Origin: Candidatus Brocadia sp. WS118
GTDB taxonomy: Bacteria; Planctomycetota; Brocadiia; Brocadiales; Brocadiaceae
DNA: 41,895 nucleotides
Assembly (NCBI GenBank): GCA_007618135.1
Contig: PHFX01000163.1
Location: 1-41,895 of the forward strand
Direction of reading: 5' to 3'
The translations under genes were made by a program, and so were the position numbers. A model generated the notes under the pieces. The model was not told where the DNA came from. It made no database searches and saw only the letters and a list, made by a program, of their open reading frames with translations. How positions within the stretch are numbered: position 1 is the first letter of the stretch; the number at the start of each line of letters is the position of its first letter. Below, piece after piece: positions 2-40,887 of this stretch.

Positions 2-349
2 TTCGGTATGGATCGTTGGTTGGTCAACGTGAAGCAGGACGCTTCTCAGGCAAGGAGACTTGCTGCCCTTGAGAAGAAGGTTGGCATTACCTGGGTTCCG
101 GAGAGTTTCTGGAAGACGGGTGAATGGCTTGATCAGTTGACGGGCCCGTACATTGTAAAGAATCACCCGGGCAAGACTATTTTCGATCTGTGTCCTGACC
201 CAGGTTGGTTAGATACGCACCATGCACCTGCTGAGGAAGTTGAGTACATCAACAGAAAGATAAAAGAACTCGGCTGGACGACTGGACATGATGCTCATCA
301 CGGTGACTCACATGATGAAGCTTCAAGATCAATGGGGAAGACGCATTAA
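2..349 (+). CDS. hao: Hydroxylamine oxidoreductase (octahaem HAO family), C-terminal end only
   Basis: The reading frame is open to the left edge of the window, so only the last 115 residues are present; the ATG at 8 is internal, not a start. The fragment has no CxxCH motif. It matches what I remember of the haem-free C-terminal helical region of anammox hydroxylamine oxidoreductase (Kuenenia kustc1061 type), including the stretches MDRWLVNVKQ, FWKTGEWLDQLTGPYIVKN and DLCPDPGWLDTHHAPAEEVE. It ends in a His-rich tail. The family consists of covalently linked trimers in the anammoxosome that oxidise hydroxylamine to NO. A strong intrinsic terminator follows 37 bases after the stop, so this gene ends its transcript. 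Which paralogue it is (hydroxylamine or hydrazine oxidising) cannot be settled without the haem region; the tail favours the hydroxylamine enzyme. Confidence 0.78.
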   Translation, partial: FGMDRWLVNVKQDASQARRLAALEKKVGITWVPESFWKTGEWLDQLTGPYIVKNHPGKTIFDLCPDPGWLDTHHAPAEEVEYINRKIKELGWTTGHDAHHGDSHDEASRSMGKTH

Positions 350-1733: not shown

Positions 1734-2879
1734 ATGGTAAAAAGAATCTCGATTGCAGGAATTATTTCCCTGTTGCTTTCTCAGCCTTGTGGATTTGCAA
1801 AAGAAGTCTCCTTGTCCGGCGATAGATATCTTGATGATGGCCGCGTGGATGAGGCTATTCATGAGTACGAAAAGTTGCTACAAAAAAACAAGAAACAACC
1901 GGAGGTTTATCTTAAACTGGGAAATGCCTATTGTAAAAAAGGGAATCTGGAAAAGGCATTAGAGGCGTTTACGATAGCAACCCAACTGAAACCGGATTAT
2001 GCAGAGGCTTATCAAAGGATGTCTGAGGTAAGCATACAGATCGGAGTACCGGAGGACGAGCTTAAGGTTTGCCTGAAAGCTGTACAAAAAGACCCTAATA
2101 ATGCAGATGCGCATCTTCAATTAGGTATGATTTACTATAAACGTAACCATTTCGATGAAGCAAAGAGGGAATACGAAACAACGATAGGACTCGATCCTAA
2201 GAAGGCAGAGGCATATTTTAACCTCGGTGTTTTGTACCAGGATGTTAATAACCATGATAAGGCGCTTGAAATGTATAAAAAAGCGGTTGTGGTATCACCG
2301 AATTATGACAAGGCGCACTTTAACCTGGGAATTGCTTACTATCAGACAGGGCACATTGAGGAATCAATTTCTGCGTATAAGCGAGTTCTTGAAATAAATC
2401 CGAAGTATGGTGACGCGTATGTGAATTTGGGAATTGCCTGTTTTGTTAACGGCTGGTATAGTGATGCCATAGAAGCGTTGAGGAGGGCGTTATCGCAGGG
2501 TTCAAACATTGCCAAGATTCATTATTATCTCGGCAATGTTTATCATAAGATGGACCAAACAGACACGGCGATCGTTGAATACAAAAAGGCGGTAGAGGCC
2601 AATTCAAAATTGGTTGCTCCGCATTATAATTTAGGCATTATTTATCTGAAAAAGCAAATGGCCGATCAGGCCATAGAGGAATTTACCAGGGTGGTCATCC
2701 TTGACCACGATTATGCTAATGCCTATTTAGGCCGAAGTAAAGCCTATGAGTTGAAGGGTGATAGGGTGAACGCACAGAACGATTACAATTCCTACCAGCA
2801 TGCCAAGTCGGCCTTTGCCAGGATTTACAAAGAAGAAAATCTGTCCGCCTATTATGAAGGTTCCAATCCTGATAGATAA
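1734..2879 (+). CDS. Secreted tetratricopeptide-repeat protein, paralogue of the upstream gene
   Basis: A 381-residue protein with a signal peptide (hydrophobic residues about 5-20, likely cleaved after GFA) and about nine to ten TPR units. Repeat order and wording resemble the upstream protein closely; both share the motif (G)xPEDELK / GAPDDEF at the same place, which points to tandem duplication. It starts one base after the preceding stop, so translational coupling is likely. A short gap separates its end from a convergent SUMF1-type gene that also contains TPR-like helices. Role unknown beyond scaffold or assembly. Confidence 0.85.
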   Translation: MVKRISIAGIISLLLSQPCGFAKEVSLSGDRYLDDGRVDEAIHEYEKLLQKNKKQPEVYLKLGNAYCKKGNLEKALEAFTIATQLKPDYAEAYQRMSEVSIQIGVPEDELKVCLKAVQKDPNNADAHLQLGMIYYKRNHFDEAKREYETTIGLDPKKAEAYFNLGVLYQDVNNHDKALEMYKKAVVVSPNYDKAHFNLGIAYYQTGHIEESISAYKRVLEINPKYGDAYVNLGIACFVNGWYSDAIEALRRALSQGSNIAKIHYYLGNVYHKMDQTDTAIVEYKKAVEANSKLVAPHYNLGIIYLKKQMADQAIEEFTRVVILDHDYANAYLGRSKAYELKGDRVNAQNDYNSYQHAKSAFARIYKEENLSAYYEGSNPDR

Positions 2880-2903: not shown

Positions 2904-4469
2904 TTAGTGCACGGCCTTGCCCTTGTCTTCCGGTTTACTGGCTTCTTTGACCGTTTTCTCGGTTTCTGCTGTATGATCTTTTGCGCATCGGAAGCCAATG
3001 CTTTTGTTTCGGTCATCTGGTTTTCCAAATATCCTTACCGCACAACGCATTTTATATGCGTAGGGGGCAAATAAAGATGCCCCTTTGATTATCCGCAGGC
3101 CAGTGCTAGTTTCCGGTCCTTTAGGATTTATGCTTGGGCTCGTATGGTAATATTCCGGATGATACCAATCGTTGCACCATTCTGAGATGCTGCCGATTAA
3201 ATCGAGGCACCCATAGACGCTTGCTCCATATTCAAAACTTCCAACAGACAGTGGCGCATCAGGGCCGACATTGCTTCGTTTGGCATCCCACACATTGCCC
3301 CAGGGAAATCTGCGCCCGTCAGTTCCCCTGGCGGCCTTCTCCCATTCAGCTTCCGTTGGCAAACGTTTCCCTGCCCATGCAGCATAAGCATAAGCATCAT
3401 ACCAATCTACGCGGGTAACCGGGTAATCAGGATAATCGTAATAGGGATAGTCCCATCCTGTATGGGGCGTGCCTGGGGTATGGTCTTTGTTTTTGGGTTC
3501 ACCCGGGAAACACTTGCTGTGGTCACCGGTGCTTTTGATTGATTGTAAAAATGCCCAGTACTGGGCATTGGTGACCTCATATTTGTCAATAAAGTATGAA
3601 TCTAAATATACCTCATGTTGTGGGGTTTCTTCAGGAATAAATTCGTCTTCTGTTGTACCCATAATAAATTTTCCTGCAGGGATCAATACCATTTCATTCC
3701 ATTTCCTGTTATTCTCCAACAGGGCTTTTTTCATTTTTTCGTCCCGTTCAGCCATCGTTAACTCTTTGCGTTGATTCTTTTCTGATGGTTTTAGCCCTTT
3801 TTCTAATTTACTGATGTAAACTTTAACGTCTTGTAATGTCTTCTTGTAATTTTCATCTGACTTCGTCTCAGGTGGTTGTGCCTCCAACAATGTTTTACAT
3901 TTGTCGAGATGGGTTAAGGCTTCCCTTTGCTTTCCAAGTTTCCAATAAATTCCTCCCATTTGAAAATGGATGGCTGGAAGTTCAGGATTTATTTTCTCGG
4001 CTTTTTTGTATTCTCCTAAAGCTCCTTCAAAATCGTTCAACTCTTCGCGGAGTCGATTTCCTTCCAGTATGTAATACATGGCTGCCTTCGTTTTTTCTTC
4101 TTGCGTGGCGTTTGGTGGGAGGTTGATTTCAATTTTTTTATCAGGTGCGGAAGTTTTTTTGTCGGGTAAGGATTTAGAAATAAGTTGTGTCCCATCTTTT
4201 TTACAAAATTTTTCACCGGGATTTGCTATTTCCTTGCAGGTGGGACATATAAGGTCAACTTCGTTGAATTCCACCAGTTCTCTGCCATCAATGCTGCAGG
4301 AACTTATATCGCCCGGGTATATTCTGCTACATCCCGGACAAAGCTTGTTTTTAGTAATATTTTCTTTTGTTTTTGGTAAGGATTCTTTTTTGGTTGCCTC
4401 TGCGTGAAGAAAGTTGAAGTGCGTTATGGTTAACACAATCAGCATAATAAGTGGATATACAAACTTCAC
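2904..4469 (-). CDS. Secreted zinc-ribbon, TPR and SUMF1 (formylglycine-generating-enzyme-like) protein
   Basis: 521 residues. Order: signal peptide (about 1-23, ends LHA); two Cys pairs in a zinc-ribbon-like module (LCPGC, then LICPTCKEI and GEKFCKKDG, about 43-98); a TPR-like helical stretch (about 125-215); and a SUMF1/FGE-sulfatase domain from about 255 to the end with the landmarks MVLIPAGKFIMGT, DKYEVTNAQYWAFL, RLPTEAEWEKAARG, FPWGN, ISEWCNDWY and IGFRCAK. The domain is best known from formylglycine-generating enzyme, but many bacterial members have no known catalysis and serve as scaffolds; the FGE Cys pair is not evident here. The C-terminus is charged and low-complexity. Transcribed towards the two TPR genes. 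A similar role in extracytoplasmic protein handling is inference only. Confidence 0.85.
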   Translation of the reverse strand: MKFVYPLIMLIVLTITHFNFLHAEATKKESLPKTKENITKNKLCPGCSRIYPGDISSCSIDGRELVEFNEVDLICPTCKEIANPGEKFCKKDGTQLISKSLPDKKTSAPDKKIEINLPPNATQEEKTKAAMYYILEGNRLREELNDFEGALGEYKKAEKINPELPAIHFQMGGIYWKLGKQREALTHLDKCKTLLEAQPPETKSDENYKKTLQDVKVYISKLEKGLKPSEKNQRKELTMAERDEKMKKALLENNRKWNEMVLIPAGKFIMGTTEDEFIPEETPQHEVYLDSYFIDKYEVTNAQYWAFLQSIKSTGDHSKCFPGEPKNKDHTPGTPHTGWDYPYYDYPDYPVTRVDWYDAYAYAAWAGKRLPTEAEWEKAARGTDGRRFPWGNVWDAKRSNVGPDAPLSVGSFEYGASVYGCLDLIGSISEWCNDWYHPEYYHTSPSINPKGPETSTGLRIIKGASLFAPYAYKMRCAVRIFGKPDDRNKSIGFRCAKDHTAETEKTVKEASKPEDKGKAVH

Positions 4470-5137: not shown

Positions 5138-5475
5138 GTGTTACATTCCTTAGATAAGGGTTTTTTGTGTTAAAATTTCAAAAACTGAATTTTACTGAAG
5201 AGCAATGTTTTTGTCAATTAATTTAGAGGAATCCGGTTTTATGAGGATATCATTTTTCTTTCCGAGAGAAAGAATTCACGACCAATGAAAAAATAACTTG
5301 AACATAGAAAAACTTTATGGTAGGATTCTAGAGCTTTGTTTTATTCTAAATTTATTTCATAGAGCTGGTTATTATTTTGCCTTAGGAAAAGCTTTCATAT
5401 TCTGGAATTATCAATCAAATATCTGAATTACATAACGAGGGTTAACTGCCGTCAAATGAAATTGAGGAGGGGTGT
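5138..5475. other. Divergent intergenic region
   Basis: 338 AT-rich bases between a minus-strand secreted protein and the plus-strand cytochrome. It must carry promoters for both, but I see no convincing consensus site and no small gene. GAGGAGGGG at 5464-5472 is the Shine-Dalgarno for the cytochrome. Confidence 0.5.
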
Positions 5476-6702
5476 ATGGAGCGGTTGAAGCAGGTGTTGG
5501 AATTTATTCGGAAGAGAAAAAAGCTGGTAGGCTTTTTTGCGATAATCGTGTTAGCAGTTTTTTTCGTTACGATACATAAGGTATATCATTATTCGGAAAA
5601 AAGTGAGTTTTGCGCCAGTTGCCATGAAATGAAAATTCATTATGATTCCTTTAAGGCATCGAAACATCATAATGAACACGTTGAAAATTGTCACGCTTGT
5701 CACGTCGGGCCTGGACTCAAGGGCTATGCACATGCAAAACTCAGCGACGGGACGCATGATTCATTAATGCATTCATTCCAGGCATATAGCGATGGCGCAT
5801 TCATTGAGATCGCTGAAGATAGTCTCGAAATTCTCAATGGAAACTGCATCCGTTGCCATTCGGAAGGTTTTACCAAAGATAAATCCCATATTGAATTTGT
5901 TTTAAAAAGCAATAAACACCGTACCGAAATTGCTCATAGCATATCACTTGAAAAATTGACCTGCACGGATTGCCACCTTGGTGTGGTTCATCCGCACATG
6001 CCGGGTGATTTGTTCAAGGCGTATGCAGCAAAGAAGATTAAACCATATGGTACATACGCGGAAACCGACTGTCTGGCTTGCCATAAAATGGCCACACCGG
6101 AGGTTGTAAAGGAATGGACGAAAGGGGTTCACGCCGCTAAGGGTGTGACGTGTGTTACGTGTCATGGAAACGATCATCGGTTTATTGCGAAAAAACGTGG
6201 CCATGTTTCTGCAAGTACCTGCGGCGAATGCCATCAGACCCAATATGTTGATTTCCGGGAAAGCAAGCATCTTCAAGGCCATCCTGTCGCAATGCCAAGC
6301 AAATTCGATGTGATCAGCACCAGGTTGTTGAATATCAAGGATTGTAAAGGATGTCATAAGTTGGGCCTGAGCTATGAGTTTGATAGAGTTGGCGGAAGTT
6401 GTGATGCCTGCCATCCAAGCCACAAATTCTCGGCAGCGGAGGCAAGGGCGTCCGATGCCTGCGAAAAGTGTCATATTGGCGGGCCAGAACATGCACAATT
6501 AAACACAGGCAAGGGGTCTATTTTTGGTAAGGTCCTAGAGTTACGCAATCAGGGTTTGATTTCTAAGGATTTGGTGACATGTCAATCGTGTCATGGTCCA
6601 AATAAATCTCATAATTTCAGTAAAAGTTATATTCCAAAAGAAATCGATGTGGTGCTTTTTGGGGGTCATGGATATATAAAGACGCATCTAACTCACCAAT
6701 AG
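5476..6702 (+). CDS. Membrane-anchored undecahaem cytochrome c: NapC/NrfH-like module plus HAO-like haem region
   Basis: 408 residues. One N-terminal transmembrane helix (about 17-34) is followed by eleven CxxCH motifs, the first at Cys46 and the last at Cys369. Haems 1-4 read like a NapC/NirT/NrfH quinol dehydrogenase: FCASCHEM just outside the membrane, then CHACHVGPG, CIRCH, and CTDCHLGVVHP. From haem 5 on (CLACH, CVTCHGNDH, CGECHQTQY, CKGCH, CDACHPSHKF, CEKCH, CQSCH) the wording resembles the N-terminal haem region of HAO-type octahaem proteins, for example CHGN-H, C-ECH-TQY and CH--H-F--A-AR--E-CK-CH. A sensible role is electron transfer between the quinone pool and a soluble multihaem oxidoreductase. 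It may serve the HAO encoded 5 kb upstream, which is inference. Preceded by a strong Shine-Dalgarno and followed by its own terminator. Confidence 0.88.
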   Translation: MERLKQVLEFIRKRKKLVGFFAIIVLAVFFVTIHKVYHYSEKSEFCASCHEMKIHYDSFKASKHHNEHVENCHACHVGPGLKGYAHAKLSDGTHDSLMHSFQAYSDGAFIEIAEDSLEILNGNCIRCHSEGFTKDKSHIEFVLKSNKHRTEIAHSISLEKLTCTDCHLGVVHPHMPGDLFKAYAAKKIKPYGTYAETDCLACHKMATPEVVKEWTKGVHAAKGVTCVTCHGNDHRFIAKKRGHVSASTCGECHQTQYVDFRESKHLQGHPVAMPSKFDVISTRLLNIKDCKGCHKLGLSYEFDRVGGSCDACHPSHKFSAAEARASDACEKCHIGGPEHAQLNTGKGSIFGKVLELRNQGLISKDLVTCQSCHGPNKSHNFSKSYIPKEIDVVLFGGHGYIKTHLTHQ

Positions 6703-6741
6703 GGTTGTTTGGACGCGAGAATGAAATAGCATGTTTTAGCA

Positions 6742-6777
6742 AAAGTCCCACCGCCTCAAACGGTGGGACTTTTTTTT
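6742..6777 (+). terminator. Intrinsic terminator of the undecahaem cytochrome gene
   Basis: A 12-base inverted repeat (6742-6753 with 6761-6772) with a 7-base loop, followed by a run of T. It lies 39 bases after the cytochrome stop and just ahead of the aconitase start, so the two genes are separate transcripts. Confidence 0.92.
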
Positions 6778-6806: not shown

Positions 6807-8735
6807 ATGGGAAAGAATCTGGTGCAAAAAATTTTAAGTTTGCATCTGGTATCCGGCGAACTAAAAAATGGTGAGGAGATTGCTTTTGCTATTGATCAAA
6901 CCCTTACGCAGGATGCCACAGGGACTATGGCGTATCTCCAGTTCGAAGCTATGGGTATTCCAAAGGTCAGGACAAAACTGTCCGTAAGTTACGTTGATCA
7001 TAATATGCTCCAGACCGGGTTCGAAAATTTTGATGATCATCTGTTCCTCCAGAGCATAGCAGAAAAATACGGCATATATTTTTCCAAACCCGGCAATGGC
7101 ATCTGTCATCAGGTGCATCTCGAACGATTTGCCGTGCCAGGAGAAACCTTACTGGGTTCCGATAGTCATACACCTACGTGCGGCGGTTTGGGGATGATAG
7201 CGATTGGTGCCGGTGGTCTCGATGTGGCTGTTGCTATGGCTGGTGGGCCATTTTATGTTTCCATGCCAAAGGTAGTGTTGGTGAAATTAAGCGGAACGTT
7301 GCAGCCATGGGTAACTGCAAAGGACGTGATTTTGGAATTATTAAAAAGGGTAACGGTAAAAGGCGGTGTAGGTAAAGTATTTGAATACGGAGGCGATGGG
7401 GTAAAAACCCTTACGGTGACAGAACGCGCTACCATTACCAATATGGGCGCCGAACTGGGGGCTCTTACCTCGATTTTTCCCAGTGATGCCCAAACAAAAA
7501 AGTATCTCAGGATGCAAGGGAGAGAGGGTGTATGGAAACCGTTTAAGGCTGATGCCAGTGCAAAGTATGATGGGATTATAGAGATTGACCTTTCGGCATT
7601 AGAACCGTTAATTGCCAGACCCCATAGTCCCGATAATGTTTGTAGCGTACGAGAAGTGAAAGGGAAAAAAGTTGAGCAGGTGTGTATTGGAAGTTGTACG
7701 AACTCATCGTATCATGACCTCATGGTGGCCGCAATGATGTTGAAGGGTCGTAAGGTGCACCCGGAGGTCAGCCTGACCATTTCTCCCGGTTCGAGGCAGG
7801 TGTTGGAGATGATAGCAAAAAATGGTGCATTGACCGATATGATTCTTGCGGGTGCGCGTGTGATTGAGGTGGCCTGCGGACCTTGTATCGGGATGGGACA
7901 GGCCCCGCCGTCAGGAGGTGTTTCCGTAAGGTCGTTTAACAGAAACTTTGAGGGGAGAAGCGGGACGGCTGATGCTCAGGTATACCTGGTTAGCCCGGAA
8001 ACGGCTATAGCCACGGCGATCAACGGTGTTATCAGTGATCCCAGGGAATTTGGAGAGCCGATTGTTATTAAAGATCCAAAGAAATTCACCATTGATGATA
8101 CGATGATGATTCCTCCTTCATTAAAACCAGAAGAGGTAACCATCAGGAGAGGTCCCAACATAAAGCCTCTGCCAAAAAAAGAACCCATGCCTGACACTTT
8201 AAAAGGGGATGTCCTTTTAAAGACCGGGGACAATATTACCACAGATCATATCATGCCGGCAGGCGCAAAGGTTTTGCCGCTACGGTCGAATATTCCCGCC
8301 ATCTCAGAGTTTGTATTTGAGAAGGTGGATAAGGAGTTTGTAAAACGTGCAAAGGAAAAGGGCGGGGGCTTCCTGATCGGTGGAGTAAACTACGGGCAAG
8401 GTTCAAGCAGGGAACACGCTGCCCTGGCGCCCATGTATTTAGGAGTAAAGGCAGTTATTGCCAAGTCGTTTGCCAGAATCCATAGGGCAAATCTGGTAAA
8501 TTTTGGAATCCTGCCGTTAACCTTTGAGAACGAGAACGACTATAATTCAATTGATCAGGGGGATAACATCGAGCTGCCCGATATAAAAAATAAATTAAAA
8601 TCAGGAGGTGCGCTGATTGTTAATAACCTGACAAAAAATAATAAAATAATGGTAAACCATGCGTTGACCCCTCGTGAGATTGATATTCTTTGTGTTGGCG
8701 GTTTATTAAATTTTCAAGCGCAGGGCAATAATTAA
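6807..8735 (+). CDS. acn: Aconitate hydratase
   Basis: 642 residues, the length of the shorter bacterial aconitase class. It interconverts citrate and isocitrate using a [4Fe-4S] cluster. Visible landmarks: LGSDSHTPTCGGLGMIAIGAGG, then CIGSCTNSSYHDL and CGPCIGMGQAPPSGG, which supply the three cluster cysteines, and the swivel domain with NITTDHIMPAG and YGQGSSREHAALAP. Substrate-binding Arg, Ser and His residues of the family appear present. I place the start at the ATG at 6807, with GAAAGG six bases upstream. The same frame is open back to a TTG at 6705, but that stretch contains the upstream terminator hairpin and cannot be coding. It sits alone between the cytochrome and a secreted protein. 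Cytoplasmic; central carbon metabolism. Confidence 0.95.
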   Translation: MGKNLVQKILSLHLVSGELKNGEEIAFAIDQTLTQDATGTMAYLQFEAMGIPKVRTKLSVSYVDHNMLQTGFENFDDHLFLQSIAEKYGIYFSKPGNGICHQVHLERFAVPGETLLGSDSHTPTCGGLGMIAIGAGGLDVAVAMAGGPFYVSMPKVVLVKLSGTLQPWVTAKDVILELLKRVTVKGGVGKVFEYGGDGVKTLTVTERATITNMGAELGALTSIFPSDAQTKKYLRMQGREGVWKPFKADASAKYDGIIEIDLSALEPLIARPHSPDNVCSVREVKGKKVEQVCIGSCTNSSYHDLMVAAMMLKGRKVHPEVSLTISPGSRQVLEMIAKNGALTDMILAGARVIEVACGPCIGMGQAPPSGGVSVRSFNRNFEGRSGTADAQVYLVSPETAIATAINGVISDPREFGEPIVIKDPKKFTIDDTMMIPPSLKPEEVTIRRGPNIKPLPKKEPMPDTLKGDVLLKTGDNITTDHIMPAGAKVLPLRSNIPAISEFVFEKVDKEFVKRAKEKGGGFLIGGVNYGQGSSREHAALAPMYLGVKAVIAKSFARIHRANLVNFGILPLTFENENDYNSIDQGDNIELPDIKNKLKSGGALIVNNLTKNNKIMVNHALTPREIDILCVGGLLNFQAQGNN

Positions 8736-28985: not shown

Positions 28986-30062
28986 ATGAAGAAAATTAAA
29001 TTTACTCTGATCAGTTGCGTCCTGGCTCTTGTCGTAATCAACATGGTAATACTGACGGTTACTGCCGCCGATGAACCGCCCAGGAATATAGGGTATGGGA
29101 GAGGCGGAAGGATGCAAGGCGGCGCTGTCTCTGAACGTTCAAAAGAACCTATCCAGCCAATTCCCGTTACCTTTGACTACGACACTGCAAAGATAGAATT
29201 AGGAAAGAAATTGTTTTTTGAACCCAGGTTGTCTAAATCCGGCTGGATCACGTGCAATTCCTGCCATAATCTTTCAACGGGCGGCGTGGATAATCTGCCC
29301 ACCTCGATCGGGCATAAATGGCTCTTTGGTCCGATAAACTCCCCCACCGTCCTGAATGCAAAATTTAATCTGGCGCAATTCTGGGACGGCCGGGCGAAGG
29401 ACCTGAAAGAGCAGGCGAAAGGCCCCATTGCTAATCCGATGGAAATGGCTTCAAACCACGAGCTTGCCGTGGATGTATTGCAATCGATACCGGCATATGT
29501 GCAGTGGTTTAAAGAGGTCTATAAAGAGGAAAATATTACCATTGATAACGTCGCTGACGCTATAGCGGCGTTTGAAGAGACGCTAACCACGCCAAACTCA
29601 AGATTTGACTGGTGGTTGAAAGACTATGATGACAAAATTACCGACGCAGAAATGGAAGGATATGATCTGTTTAAAAATAAAGGTTGTATCATCTGCCACA
29701 ACGGCTTCGGTGTAGGAGGAACCTCCTTTCAGAAATTTGGAGTTGCAAAACCGTATGACAAAGACACCCAGACGCTTGGCAGATACAACGTAACAAAAGA
29801 GGAAAAAGATAAATATGCGTTCAAAGTTCCCTTGCTCAGAAATATTGAATTAACAGCCCCCTATTTCCATGACGCGAGCACGTGGAGTTTGAGTGAGGCA
29901 GTGAAAATCATGGCAGAATATCAGCTGGGAGTAACATTTAATGATAATGAAACGGACAAGATTGTCGCTTTTCTGCGAACCTTAACCGGAGATCAGCCGT
30001 CTATTCTTTTCCCCATCCTGCCACCATCAAATGAAAATACACCGAAACCAAACCGGAATTGA
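28986..30062 (+). CDS. Dihaem cytochrome c peroxidase (CcpA/MauG family)
   Basis: 358 residues with a signal peptide (about 1-27, ends VTAA). Two haem motifs: CNSCH at 90-94 (N-terminal, peroxidatic domain) and CIICH at 234-238. Between and after them are family markers FFEPRLSKSGWITCNSCHNL, NSPTVLNAKFNLAQFWDGRAK, EQAKGPIANPMEM and KVPLLRNIELTAPYFHDAS, with the Met of VKIMAEYQLG a candidate distal ligand. The enzyme reduces hydrogen peroxide to water with electrons from small cytochromes outside the cytoplasm. There is a Gly-rich insert after the signal peptide and a Pro-rich tail. The CDGSH gene begins 20 bases later, so they are probably one transcript. Confidence 0.92.
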   Translation: MKKIKFTLISCVLALVVINMVILTVTAADEPPRNIGYGRGGRMQGGAVSERSKEPIQPIPVTFDYDTAKIELGKKLFFEPRLSKSGWITCNSCHNLSTGGVDNLPTSIGHKWLFGPINSPTVLNAKFNLAQFWDGRAKDLKEQAKGPIANPMEMASNHELAVDVLQSIPAYVQWFKEVYKEENITIDNVADAIAAFEETLTTPNSRFDWWLKDYDDKITDAEMEGYDLFKNKGCIICHNGFGVGGTSFQKFGVAKPYDKDTQTLGRYNVTKEEKDKYAFKVPLLRNIELTAPYFHDASTWSLSEAVKIMAEYQLGVTFNDNETDKIVAFLRTLTGDQPSILFPILPPSNENTPKPNRN

Positions 30063-39089: not shown

Positions 39090-40187
39090 TCATTTAAACA
39101 AAGTTAATTGTTGTGGTATTTTATTCCTATCCAAATAGCTTTTAAAAATCTCATATTTTCTCTTTAAATATTGACTCTCAGGAACTCCATCATACAGGTA
39201 ATGAAAAAGTTTTACGCTGTCCTTTGTCCCATATCTGAAATAATAACTAACATTTCCTTTCTTACTTCGCCTGTCCTCATAAAGTTTTACAGCAGATAAA
39301 CCCTGCTTATGTAAGTATTCAACTAAGGCTTTTATAAACTCATAAGAACCACAAACAAAAGATGTTTTTAGATTACCGTTTCTCTTTTCAATATATACAC
39401 TTCCATCTCCATCCCAACACCCACGAATAAAATGTCTTACATACTCATCTGGAATTTCTGGGAATTTCATCGATAAGCTCTTGTTAGGAGTTAGCCCTAA
39501 CTTTACAAGCTGCTCAAAATATTTATCACAATTAATATGAAAATAATACAGTTCTCCTGCTGTAGTATTTTCATATTTTGCACGTCTTCGATATAGTATC
39601 TTTGAATCAGAACCTATAAGATTTAAAAATTTTTCAACCAATTCTTTCTCTCTTTGTGCAAATGTTAATCTACCAATCCTTAATGTTGTTTTTCTGATAG
39701 GGTCATTTAACATTCCTGGATCAATATTTCCATCTGTATAAATTAATCCCAACACATAGGCCATTTCATTTGACCATTTAGAAAAGAAATTTTCATTAAA
39801 ATGAACTTTACTTCTAGTTTTTTCTTCAATTTCCCCATCGCAATTTATAGAAGAGTATTTGATTTTCCCTTTGTCTAGAGCTATCGTTCGTGCTTCTGCC
39901 TTATCTCTTAATTTTATTTTGAACTTTTTAATGTGAAAATATACAGTATGTCTTGTGCAATCAGCAATCCTGCCAATATCTGATAGGGACAATTGTTTGT
40001 CTGTATATAATTCAGTTAACCTTTCTTTTGTTAAAAAGGCTGCCGATATACCTCTCTTATTTATTTTGTGATTCTTATGTTCAGCTTCAATTTTAAGAGT
40101 GTAGCATTTTCTACAAAGACCTTTTGCAACATGCTCTAGGTTTGTTGTTCCACATTTTACACACTTATCGTATTTTATTGACCACAT
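39090..40187 (-). CDS. Free-standing LAGLIDADG-type homing endonuclease with zinc-ribbon N-terminus
   Basis: 365 residues. Order: a Cys4 zinc ribbon (KCVKCGTT...LCRKCY, about 8-30), a helix-turn-helix-like stretch (SLSDIGRIADCTRHTVYFHI, about 68-87), and then two LAGLIDADG-like helices, AYVLGLIYTDGNID (about 145) and HFIRGCWDGDGSVYI (about 255), whose Asp residues would bind metal. Such enzymes cut long DNA sites and spread themselves. It lies in no host gene or recognisable intron. The ATG at 40187 is preferred; a TTG at 40247 would add 20 residues. Base composition is visibly more AT-rich than the surroundings, which suggests transfer. Confidence 0.82.
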   Translation of the reverse strand: MWSIKYDKCVKCGTTNLEHVAKGLCRKCYTLKIEAEHKNHKINKRGISAAFLTKERLTELYTDKQLSLSDIGRIADCTRHTVYFHIKKFKIKLRDKAEARTIALDKGKIKYSSINCDGEIEEKTRSKVHFNENFFSKWSNEMAYVLGLIYTDGNIDPGMLNDPIRKTTLRIGRLTFAQREKELVEKFLNLIGSDSKILYRRRAKYENTTAGELYYFHINCDKYFEQLVKLGLTPNKSLSMKFPEIPDEYVRHFIRGCWDGDGSVYIEKRNGNLKTSFVCGSYEFIKALVEYLHKQGLSAVKLYEDRRSKKGNVSYYFRYGTKDSVKLFHYLYDGVPESQYLKRKYEIFKSYLDRNKIPQQLTLFK

Positions 40188-40887
40188 ATCAAAAATATTC
40201 TTTGGCGCTAAGCCAATATTTAGTTGGTATTCCTCGAATTCAATCAATAAAAATTGCTAAATTAGATTTAATCGCTAAAACTACTTCCTTTTTTAAAGGT
40301 GCATAATGAATGGAACTCGCACGCAAATCTTGCGGTGTTTGTTGCTTGCAGTAATTTATCAGGTAGCAACATTAGGCAACGGACCTCTCCACTTGGAGTC
40401 GAAAAGGGTCGCATCTTAAATCTTCAATGATAGTCATGTTACACAGTAAAGTTGTGTAGGTTGGGTTGAGTGAAGCGAAACCCAACAAATCAAATTATTC
40501 TAATCCGAACGAGTCAGAACCAAATTGGGGACACATCCCTTTTTGAGTCTACCTTTATGTAAAAAGGAAATTTTTAGGTATAAGCAGTTGCTTTTTTCAA
40601 GTAAAACACGGACAAACAAGTTTGTCCATGCCACCCAAAAACCTGCTTAAATAAAATTAAAATCCTATACTATCAAGATATATAGTAAGAACGGATATTT
40701 CAATAGAATATTCGTTTGAGAAAAACTCTATTTGCGAACGATTGTCTTCTTGCCCTGACATTCTACGATGTCTCATTATCCTTACCAGATATGATGTCGA
40801 TGACATATTGAGTTTTATCAGATAGCCAAAATAATCAATCAAATTAATCCTCTGTTACACTACAATTCAATGTCATAATCTTAATCC
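40188..40887. other. Non-coding repeat-bearing gap
   Basis: About 700 bases. A GGTTGGGTT-family copy is at 40458-40486. AAATTGGGGACACATCCC at about 40522-40539 resembles sequence often seen next to RAYT/IS200-type transposases. A GGACAAAC/GTTTGTCC hairpin lies near 40609-40627. The segment around 40775-40803 resembles 41609-41640, and both contain ATATCCTTACC-type arms. No gene is convincing. Confidence 0.5.

Follow-up and report, generated by a model that had tools for sequence, protein, structure and literature searches.

An eleven-haem membrane cytochrome of anammox bacteria that joins an NrfH-like module to an HAO-type haem wire: a candidate link between hydrazine dehydrogenase and menaquinone

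Gene organization of the locus

The window analysed here is a stretch of 41,895 nucleotides from Candidatus Brocadia sp. WS118. Its left end carries the gene of a multihaem cytochrome, termed UNDECA, together with the following genes and signals.

2..349 (+): C-terminal part of hydrazine dehydrogenase (HDH), cut by the contig end; NF052343 E 4.4e-55, 187 bits, profile positions 465-563; 98% identity
506-1732 and 1734-2879 (+): two TPR proteins, encoded after HDH in almost every anammox genome that was examined
2904..4469 (-): zinc-ribbon/TPR/FGE-sulfatase-domain protein, divergent neighbour of UNDECA; PF03781 200 bits
4589..5137 (-): small exported protein with no Pfam match, adjoining UNDECA in Brocadiaceae only
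5464..5472 (+): ribosome-binding-like GAGGAGGGG before the UNDECA ATG, read from the sequence
5476..6702 (+): UNDECA, undecahaem NapC/NrfH-HAO-like membrane cytochrome of 408 amino acids; single ORF with an ATG start
6741..6773 (+): strong terminator-like (intrinsic) hairpin of 13 pairs, directly 3' of the UNDECA gene
6807..8735 (+): aconitase, beyond the terminator, found 3' of UNDECA in Brocadiaceae as well as in two further families; start codon inferred

The hairpin at 6741-6773 makes a single-gene UNDECA transcript likely. The encoded protein contains 11 CxxCH motifs, located at residues 46, 72, 124, 163, 199, 226, 249, 290, 309, 329, and 369, and the Cys/Cys/His sets of all 11 haem sites were conserved in each of 54 homologues, the most distant of which is 47% identical. 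Comparison of the gene with a 93%-identical homologue in a related genome revealed a dN of 0.034 against a dS of 0.86; strong purifying selection acts on the gene. In one anammox family (8 homologues), haem 1 is bound by CGxxCH (CX3CH) instead of CxxCH, with both Cys residues and the His retained.

Elsewhere in the window, an ORF at 39090-40247 (-) carries LAGLIDADG-like stretches (YVLGLIYTDGNID and FIRGCWDGDGSV), recognised by eye, and possibly encodes a homing endonuclease. At 28986-30062 (+), again by eye, lies a gene whose product has two CxxCH motifs and resembles di-haem cytochrome c peroxidases.

Linkage to hydrazine dehydrogenase

The original prediction, made from the sequence of the window, had placed an HAO-type gene about 5 kb from UNDECA. 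An HAO-family gene was indeed present, and its identity proved to be HDH rather than a generic HAO. In other genomes, the complete HDH neighbours scored about 1180-1246 bits against NF052343, for which the cut-off is 900. Distinct loci whose upstream sequence extends for at least 7 kb numbered 25; in 16 of them, HDH was found 5-9 kb upstream of UNDECA, covering three families at about 50% identity. The order HDH, TPR, TPR, FGE-domain gene (opposite strand), UNDECA was kept in Brocadia, Jettenia, Loosdrechtia, and Scalindua and in a third family, so that synteny, which the original prediction had suggested checking in other anammox genomes, could be confirmed. The FGE-domain gene was the divergent neighbour of UNDECA in 42 of 47 loci. 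On the far side, the genes AccA and Pss were kept only in the closest relatives; against such reshuffled surroundings, the conservation of the HDH-UNDECA block is conspicuous. In Kuenenia, where the two genes lie far apart, and in a few others, the linkage does not hold, and the Kuenenia FGE gene is also located elsewhere, away from UNDECA. Since two opposite-strand genes lie between HDH and UNDECA and a terminator follows UNDECA, the arrangement represents a gene cluster with HDH and not one operon.

The remaining part of an HDH gene stops at the border of a second contig (G000:C232:3-1373), which fits an assembly break at a multi-copy gene, and many homologous contigs likewise start at or just past HDH.

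N-terminal NapC/NrfH module

The features of UNDECA within the coding sequence were assigned as follows.

5524..5586 (+): sole transmembrane helix, about residues 17-37; hydropathy 2.36, model helix 15-40
5530..5994 (+): NapC/NirT/NrfH module with haems 1-4, residues 19-173; PF03264, TIGR03153, NrfH fold
5611..5631 (+): haem 1, CASCHEM, including Met52, which aligns to Met49 of Desulfovibrio vulgaris NrfH
5737..5760 (+): Lys88 and Asp95, aligned to the NrfH quinol-site residues Lys82 and Asp89
6046..6627 (+): HAO/HDH-like seven-haem wire, residues 191-384, haems 5-11 equivalent to HAO haems 1-7 (sequence, alignment, fold)
6343..6357 (+): haem 8, C290-H294, matching HAO haem 4 by column alignment
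6523..6525 (+): Phe350, replacing the family-wide His of SxHG in its alignment column

A transmembrane anchor followed by four NapC-like haems had been predicted, and this layout was borne out: a hydrophobic segment spans about residues 15-37, four NapC-type haems come after this N-terminal membrane helix, and the first of them is CxxCHxM, as in the NapC/NirT/NrfH layout. The Pfam NapC/NirT profile PF03264 matched with 60.2 bits (cut-off 24.1) and an E value of 2.8e-16, while the NCBIfam NrfH profile TIGR03153 gave 87.2 bits, below its equivalog cut-off of 134.2. The fold of the N-terminal part was comparable to that of NrfH (2vr0_F), with a Z score of 8.1 over 135 of 146 residues for UNDECA residues 17-198, in a full-length model that was built with 41 homologues and is poor (low confidence, pLDDT 57). 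Thus, by profile, layout, and predicted fold, UNDECA is a member of the NapC/NirT/NrfH superfamily.

Residues of UNDECA were paired by alignment to D. vulgaris NrfH, counted from its printed start. We take NrfH Met49 to be the ligand of haem 1 and Lys82 and Asp89 to be quinol-site residues, as in NrfHA structures. The corresponding Met52, Lys88, and Asp95 were invariant across 41 aligned homologues. An RKRKK motif precedes the transmembrane helix, which suggests that the N-terminus lies inside and that the haem domain would face the anammoxosome lumen.

An identity as NrfH proper could be rejected, based on the TIGR03153 score below the cut-off, the lack of an adjoining NrfA gene, and a genuine NrfH-NrfA pair elsewhere in the genome; because of this separate pair, UNDECA is not the partner of NrfA.

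C-terminal seven-haem region

Sequence searches of PDB entries with residues 191-384 revealed HDH (E 1.9e-12) and also HAO, with profile E values down to 5e-20. In an alignment of 82 rows, the seven haem sites and the distal histidines His219, 234, 265, 316, 339, and 379 fell in the same columns as those of HDH and the wider HAO family. A model of the C-terminal half, built with 82 HAO-family sequences and carrying no haem coordinates, reached a pLDDT of 86.5 and a pTM of 0.80. Its best fold match was HDH 6hif_A (Z 11.8, 180 residues, 4.1 A), followed by HAOs at Z 8.7-9.5, octahaem nitrite reductases (ONR) at about 6, and NrfA at 3.1. Taken with HAO haem sites 1-7 and the distal histidines, the modelled fold assigns this half of UNDECA to the HAO superfamily. 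The predicted resemblance of the seven haems to the first part of HAO therefore held in sequence, in shared haem columns, and in fold, with HDH ranking first. Neither a better match of these haems to an unrelated family nor a lack of NapC/NrfH similarity in the N-terminal part was found. Among other multihaem families considered (NrfA, ONR, OTR, and c554), all were either lower than HAO/HDH by sequence and fold or not listed among the matches.

The similarity is partial in extent. The UNDECA chain stops where HAO haem 7 ends, and alignments reveal no counterpart of HAO haem 8, of the region around the cross-link tyrosine, or of the tail that forms the trimer. Pfam PF13447 gave 19.5 bits, under its cut-off of 21.9, and the HDH equivalog NF052343 gave 53.6 bits against a threshold of 900. 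The missing haem 8, tyrosine region, and trimer tail suggest that this half is probably no oxidase but a wire that may have lost HAO chemistry or may never have had it. UNDECA haem 8 corresponds to HAO haem 4, the P460 active-site haem in HAO. Both this haem and the nearby His339 were invariant, whereas the Asp preceding His339 differs between UNDECA families and is Ser, Val, or Pro in Scalindua.

At position 350, Phe was present in 18 of 18 Brocadiaceae UNDECA proteins, while His occurs throughout the HAO family and in the Scalindua-type and all other homologues. If His350 is a haem ligand, one UNDECA haem has changed its ligation in Brocadiaceae. In HDH itself, haem motif 3 is expanded (CGTSECH, CX4CH; residues 169-175 in one HDH), and a plain CxxCH count for HDH therefore gives seven.

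Phylogenetic position of the wire

A tree of the seven-haem region, for which UNDECA homologues were sampled from three of the four families with Brocadiaceae left out, placed the sampled homologues in one clade (100/99). HDH formed its own clade (100/100), set apart from UNDECA across a branch with 98/93 support, and the canonical anammox HAOs were also separate. On the UNDECA side of that branch lay compact HAO-family proteins with eight haems, from other Planctomycetes, from Myxococcota, and from desulfuromonads. These proteins also scored up to 136 bits against the UNDECA profile, compared to about 60-77 for HDH. One long-branch sequence of Kuenenia weakly joined the UNDECA clade (94/27).

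The tree thus identifies the UNDECA wire as a monophyletic lineage of its own that branches deeply within the HAO superfamily. The proposed fusion of an HAO-like haem region to a NapC/NrfH unit stands with respect to the superfamily; the notion that this part is half of a canonical HAO or HDH does not. A truncated copy of HDH or of an anammox HAO fused to NrfH could be excluded by the separate clades and the 98/93 branch. A NapC/NrfH module was present neither in the chain nor in the adjoining genes of the compact octahaem proteins at the loci that were read. In proteobacteria, a recurrent pair was observed at 11 loci, in which HAO-like octahaem genes lie directly beside a gene for a 4-5-haem HAO-related protein.

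Distribution among anammox bacteria

The anammox order was represented by 62 genomes; 56 of them, from four of its five families, encode a full-length or contig-split UNDECA homologue. Among 392 genomes of the phylum, no full-length homologue occurred outside this order. Full-length matches in a scan of named genomes were all from anammox bacteria, namely Brocadia, Jettenia, Kuenenia (71% identity), Loosdrechtia, Scalindua, and Planctomycetota/Brocadiales MAGs. A contig recorded under an alphaproteobacterium (isolate OFTM68) also carried a partial UNDECA gene; this is probably binning contamination from an anammox genome.

UNDECA was absent from both fully searched genomes of the Anammoxibacteraceae, though HDH and the two TPR genes were present; this family was assigned by the grouping of its HAO with that of a named Anammoxibacter record. 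The other four UNDECA-less genomes of the order are probably incomplete assemblies; in one of these, a contig ends inside the FGE gene, and the other three also have no FGE orthologue. A search for a replacement in Anammoxibacteraceae gave only NapC-c7 chains of 580-637 amino acids without an HAO part. More widely, the Anammoxibacteraceae-type genomes and one UNDECA-less genome encode chains of 447-637 amino acids with a NapC-like start followed by many c7-type haems, which are possible other quinone links. The gene of one such chain adjoins a multihaem cytochrome b gene.

Proposed function and rival explanations

Published work names the entry point of the very low-potential hydrazine electrons into the anammoxosome membrane as an open question (PMC12954380, PMC3701875, PMC8388095). 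UNDECA is conserved, nearly anammox-specific, and close to HDH in most lineages, and it represents a concrete, expressible, and assayable candidate for the link from HDH to quinone. Beyond the architecture, folds, conservation, and HDH linkage described above, we infer its quinone reactivity, its partner, and the direction of electron flow. We propose, at a probability of roughly 0.45, that UNDECA is a membrane-anchored hydrazine-electron:menaquinone reductase with an HAO-type wire, probably fed via small cytochromes. Somewhat more tentatively still, it could be the missing membrane entry of anammox energy metabolism in most anammox bacteria, replaced in Anammoxibacteraceae.

By analogy with NrfH, electron exchange between the N-terminal module and menaquinone would take place next to haem 1, at Lys88/Asp95, and haems 1-4 would relay electrons to or from the seven-haem domain in the anammoxosome lumen, where this domain may dock a soluble partner. 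HDH is favoured as the ultimate donor because of the gene linkage. The likeliest direction would run from HDH, directly or by a small cytochrome c able to enter the HDH cage, through the wire to menaquinone. HDH is reported to form a cage into which only small proteins fit (PMC8388095); direct docking of UNDECA is therefore doubtful, and a small cytochrome c probably carries the electrons from HDH to the wire. As Anammoxibacteraceae have HDH without UNDECA, the latter cannot be the sole route in all anammox bacteria. If the proposal is true, hydrazine oxidation would feed menaquinone via a one-helix, non-pumping protein, and the energy balance of anammox would be redrawn.

Several points count against UNDECA as a reductase. 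A proton pump is expected in the literature at the point where hydrazine electrons enter, and NapC/NrfH proteins usually oxidise quinol, which speaks against the quinone-reducing direction. Hydrazine stands at -750 mV (PMC8388095) and menaquinone at about -70 mV (PMC12954380); since a one-helix protein cannot pump protons, this drop would be largely wasted. The distance between HDH and UNDECA in Kuenenia and the lack of a common operon with HDH also weigh against the proposal.

The chief rival explanation, which we consider rather unlikely, follows the usual NapC/NrfH direction, with UNDECA as a quinol dehydrogenase whose HAO-like wire would deliver electrons from menaquinol to small cytochromes c and on to nitrite reductase, hydrazine synthase (HZS), or another lumenal acceptor. 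The characterised NrfH/NapC homologues do work as quinol dehydrogenases, and a single helix suits electron transfer that runs downhill without pumping, from menaquinol at -70 mV to cytochromes at about +250 mV. HAO surfaces are also known to dock small cytochromes c (PMC8388095). The conserved neighbour of UNDECA, however, is HDH, an electron-releasing enzyme, and no gene for nitrite reductase or HZS was seen near UNDECA in the loci, which argues against this direction, as does the fact that other routes from quinol to HZS or to nitrite have already been proposed in anammox (the ETM and R/b complexes).

UNDECA as a self-contained quinol-dependent reductase, in effect a fused NrfH and cross-link-free HAO in which the counterpart of HAO haem 4 would be an open site for the reduction of nitrite, NO, or hydroxylamine, appears improbable. 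The invariance of that haem and of His339 would suit such catalysis, and the tyrosine-less HAO of Kuenenia reduces nitrite, as cited in PMC12485887. Against it stand the loss of HAO haem 8, of the active-site tyrosine region, and of the trimer interface, and the substitutions of the Asp beside His339 in Scalindua; a role as a wire requires no catalysis. Least probable in our estimate is an accessory function in HDH biogenesis, or that of a minor redox valve, near HDH and with the TPR and FGE-domain genes. Such a role would fit with the FGE/TPR-domain gene as the tightest neighbour of UNDECA (42 of 47 loci), with the two TPR genes that come after HDH, and with the absence of UNDECA from Anammoxibacteraceae, but eleven haems and strictly kept quinone-site residues point to bulk electron transfer, and the homologue in Kuenenia is still 71% identical, even with its FGE gene located elsewhere.

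Comparison with known systems

No published description of a fusion between a NapC/NrfH unit and a domain of the HAO superfamily was found in our partial coverage of the literature, and an earlier mention is possible. The kind may be already known, as a quinone-linked HAO-family module, and the single-chain form may be what is new.

The N-terminal module resembles NrfH (2j7a/2vr0) in its single N-terminal helix, four haems, CxxCHxM haem 1, Lys/Asp quinol site, and fold, but UNDECA has seven extra haems and no NrfA neighbour. The pentahaem cytochromes TorC/TorY likewise combine a NapC-type module and an extra C-terminal haem domain in one chain (TorC score of UNDECA, 38 bits); TorC adds one haem of another type, whereas UNDECA adds seven of the HAO type.

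HDH and HAO (6hif, 4n4j, 6t5e, 1fgj) share with UNDECA the seven haem sites, the six distal histidines, and the fold around haems 1-7. UNDECA differs from them by an identity of only about 27%, by the absence of HAO haem 8 and of the cross-link/trimer region, and by its position outside the HAO/HDH clade. The nearest relatives of the seven-haem half are the compact octahaem members of the HAO family in other Planctomycetes and in Myxococcota; unlike the UNDECA wire, these have kept the eighth haem.

At the level of the whole system, the kuste4574-type HAO in the Rieske/cytochrome b complex of Kuenenia likewise connects the HAO family to quinone chemistry at the membrane (PMC8862662, PMC12954380); it is an octahaem enzyme in a multi-subunit cytochrome b complex, while UNDECA is one chain without cytochrome b. 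In ammonia oxidisers, HAO, c554, and cM552 pass electrons to quinone, and a reverse form occurs in Nautilia (PMC3701875). Like the proposal for UNDECA, this hydroxylamine:ubiquinone redox module couples an HAO-family protein to quinone via a NapC/NrfH-type cytochrome (PMC3701875). The module is encoded by separate genes, in contrast to the one polypeptide of UNDECA, for which HDH is the enzyme suspected from genomic linkage. UNDECA would then be the anammox counterpart of the HAO-c554-cM552 module, with the shuttle and the quinone reductase placed on one polypeptide.
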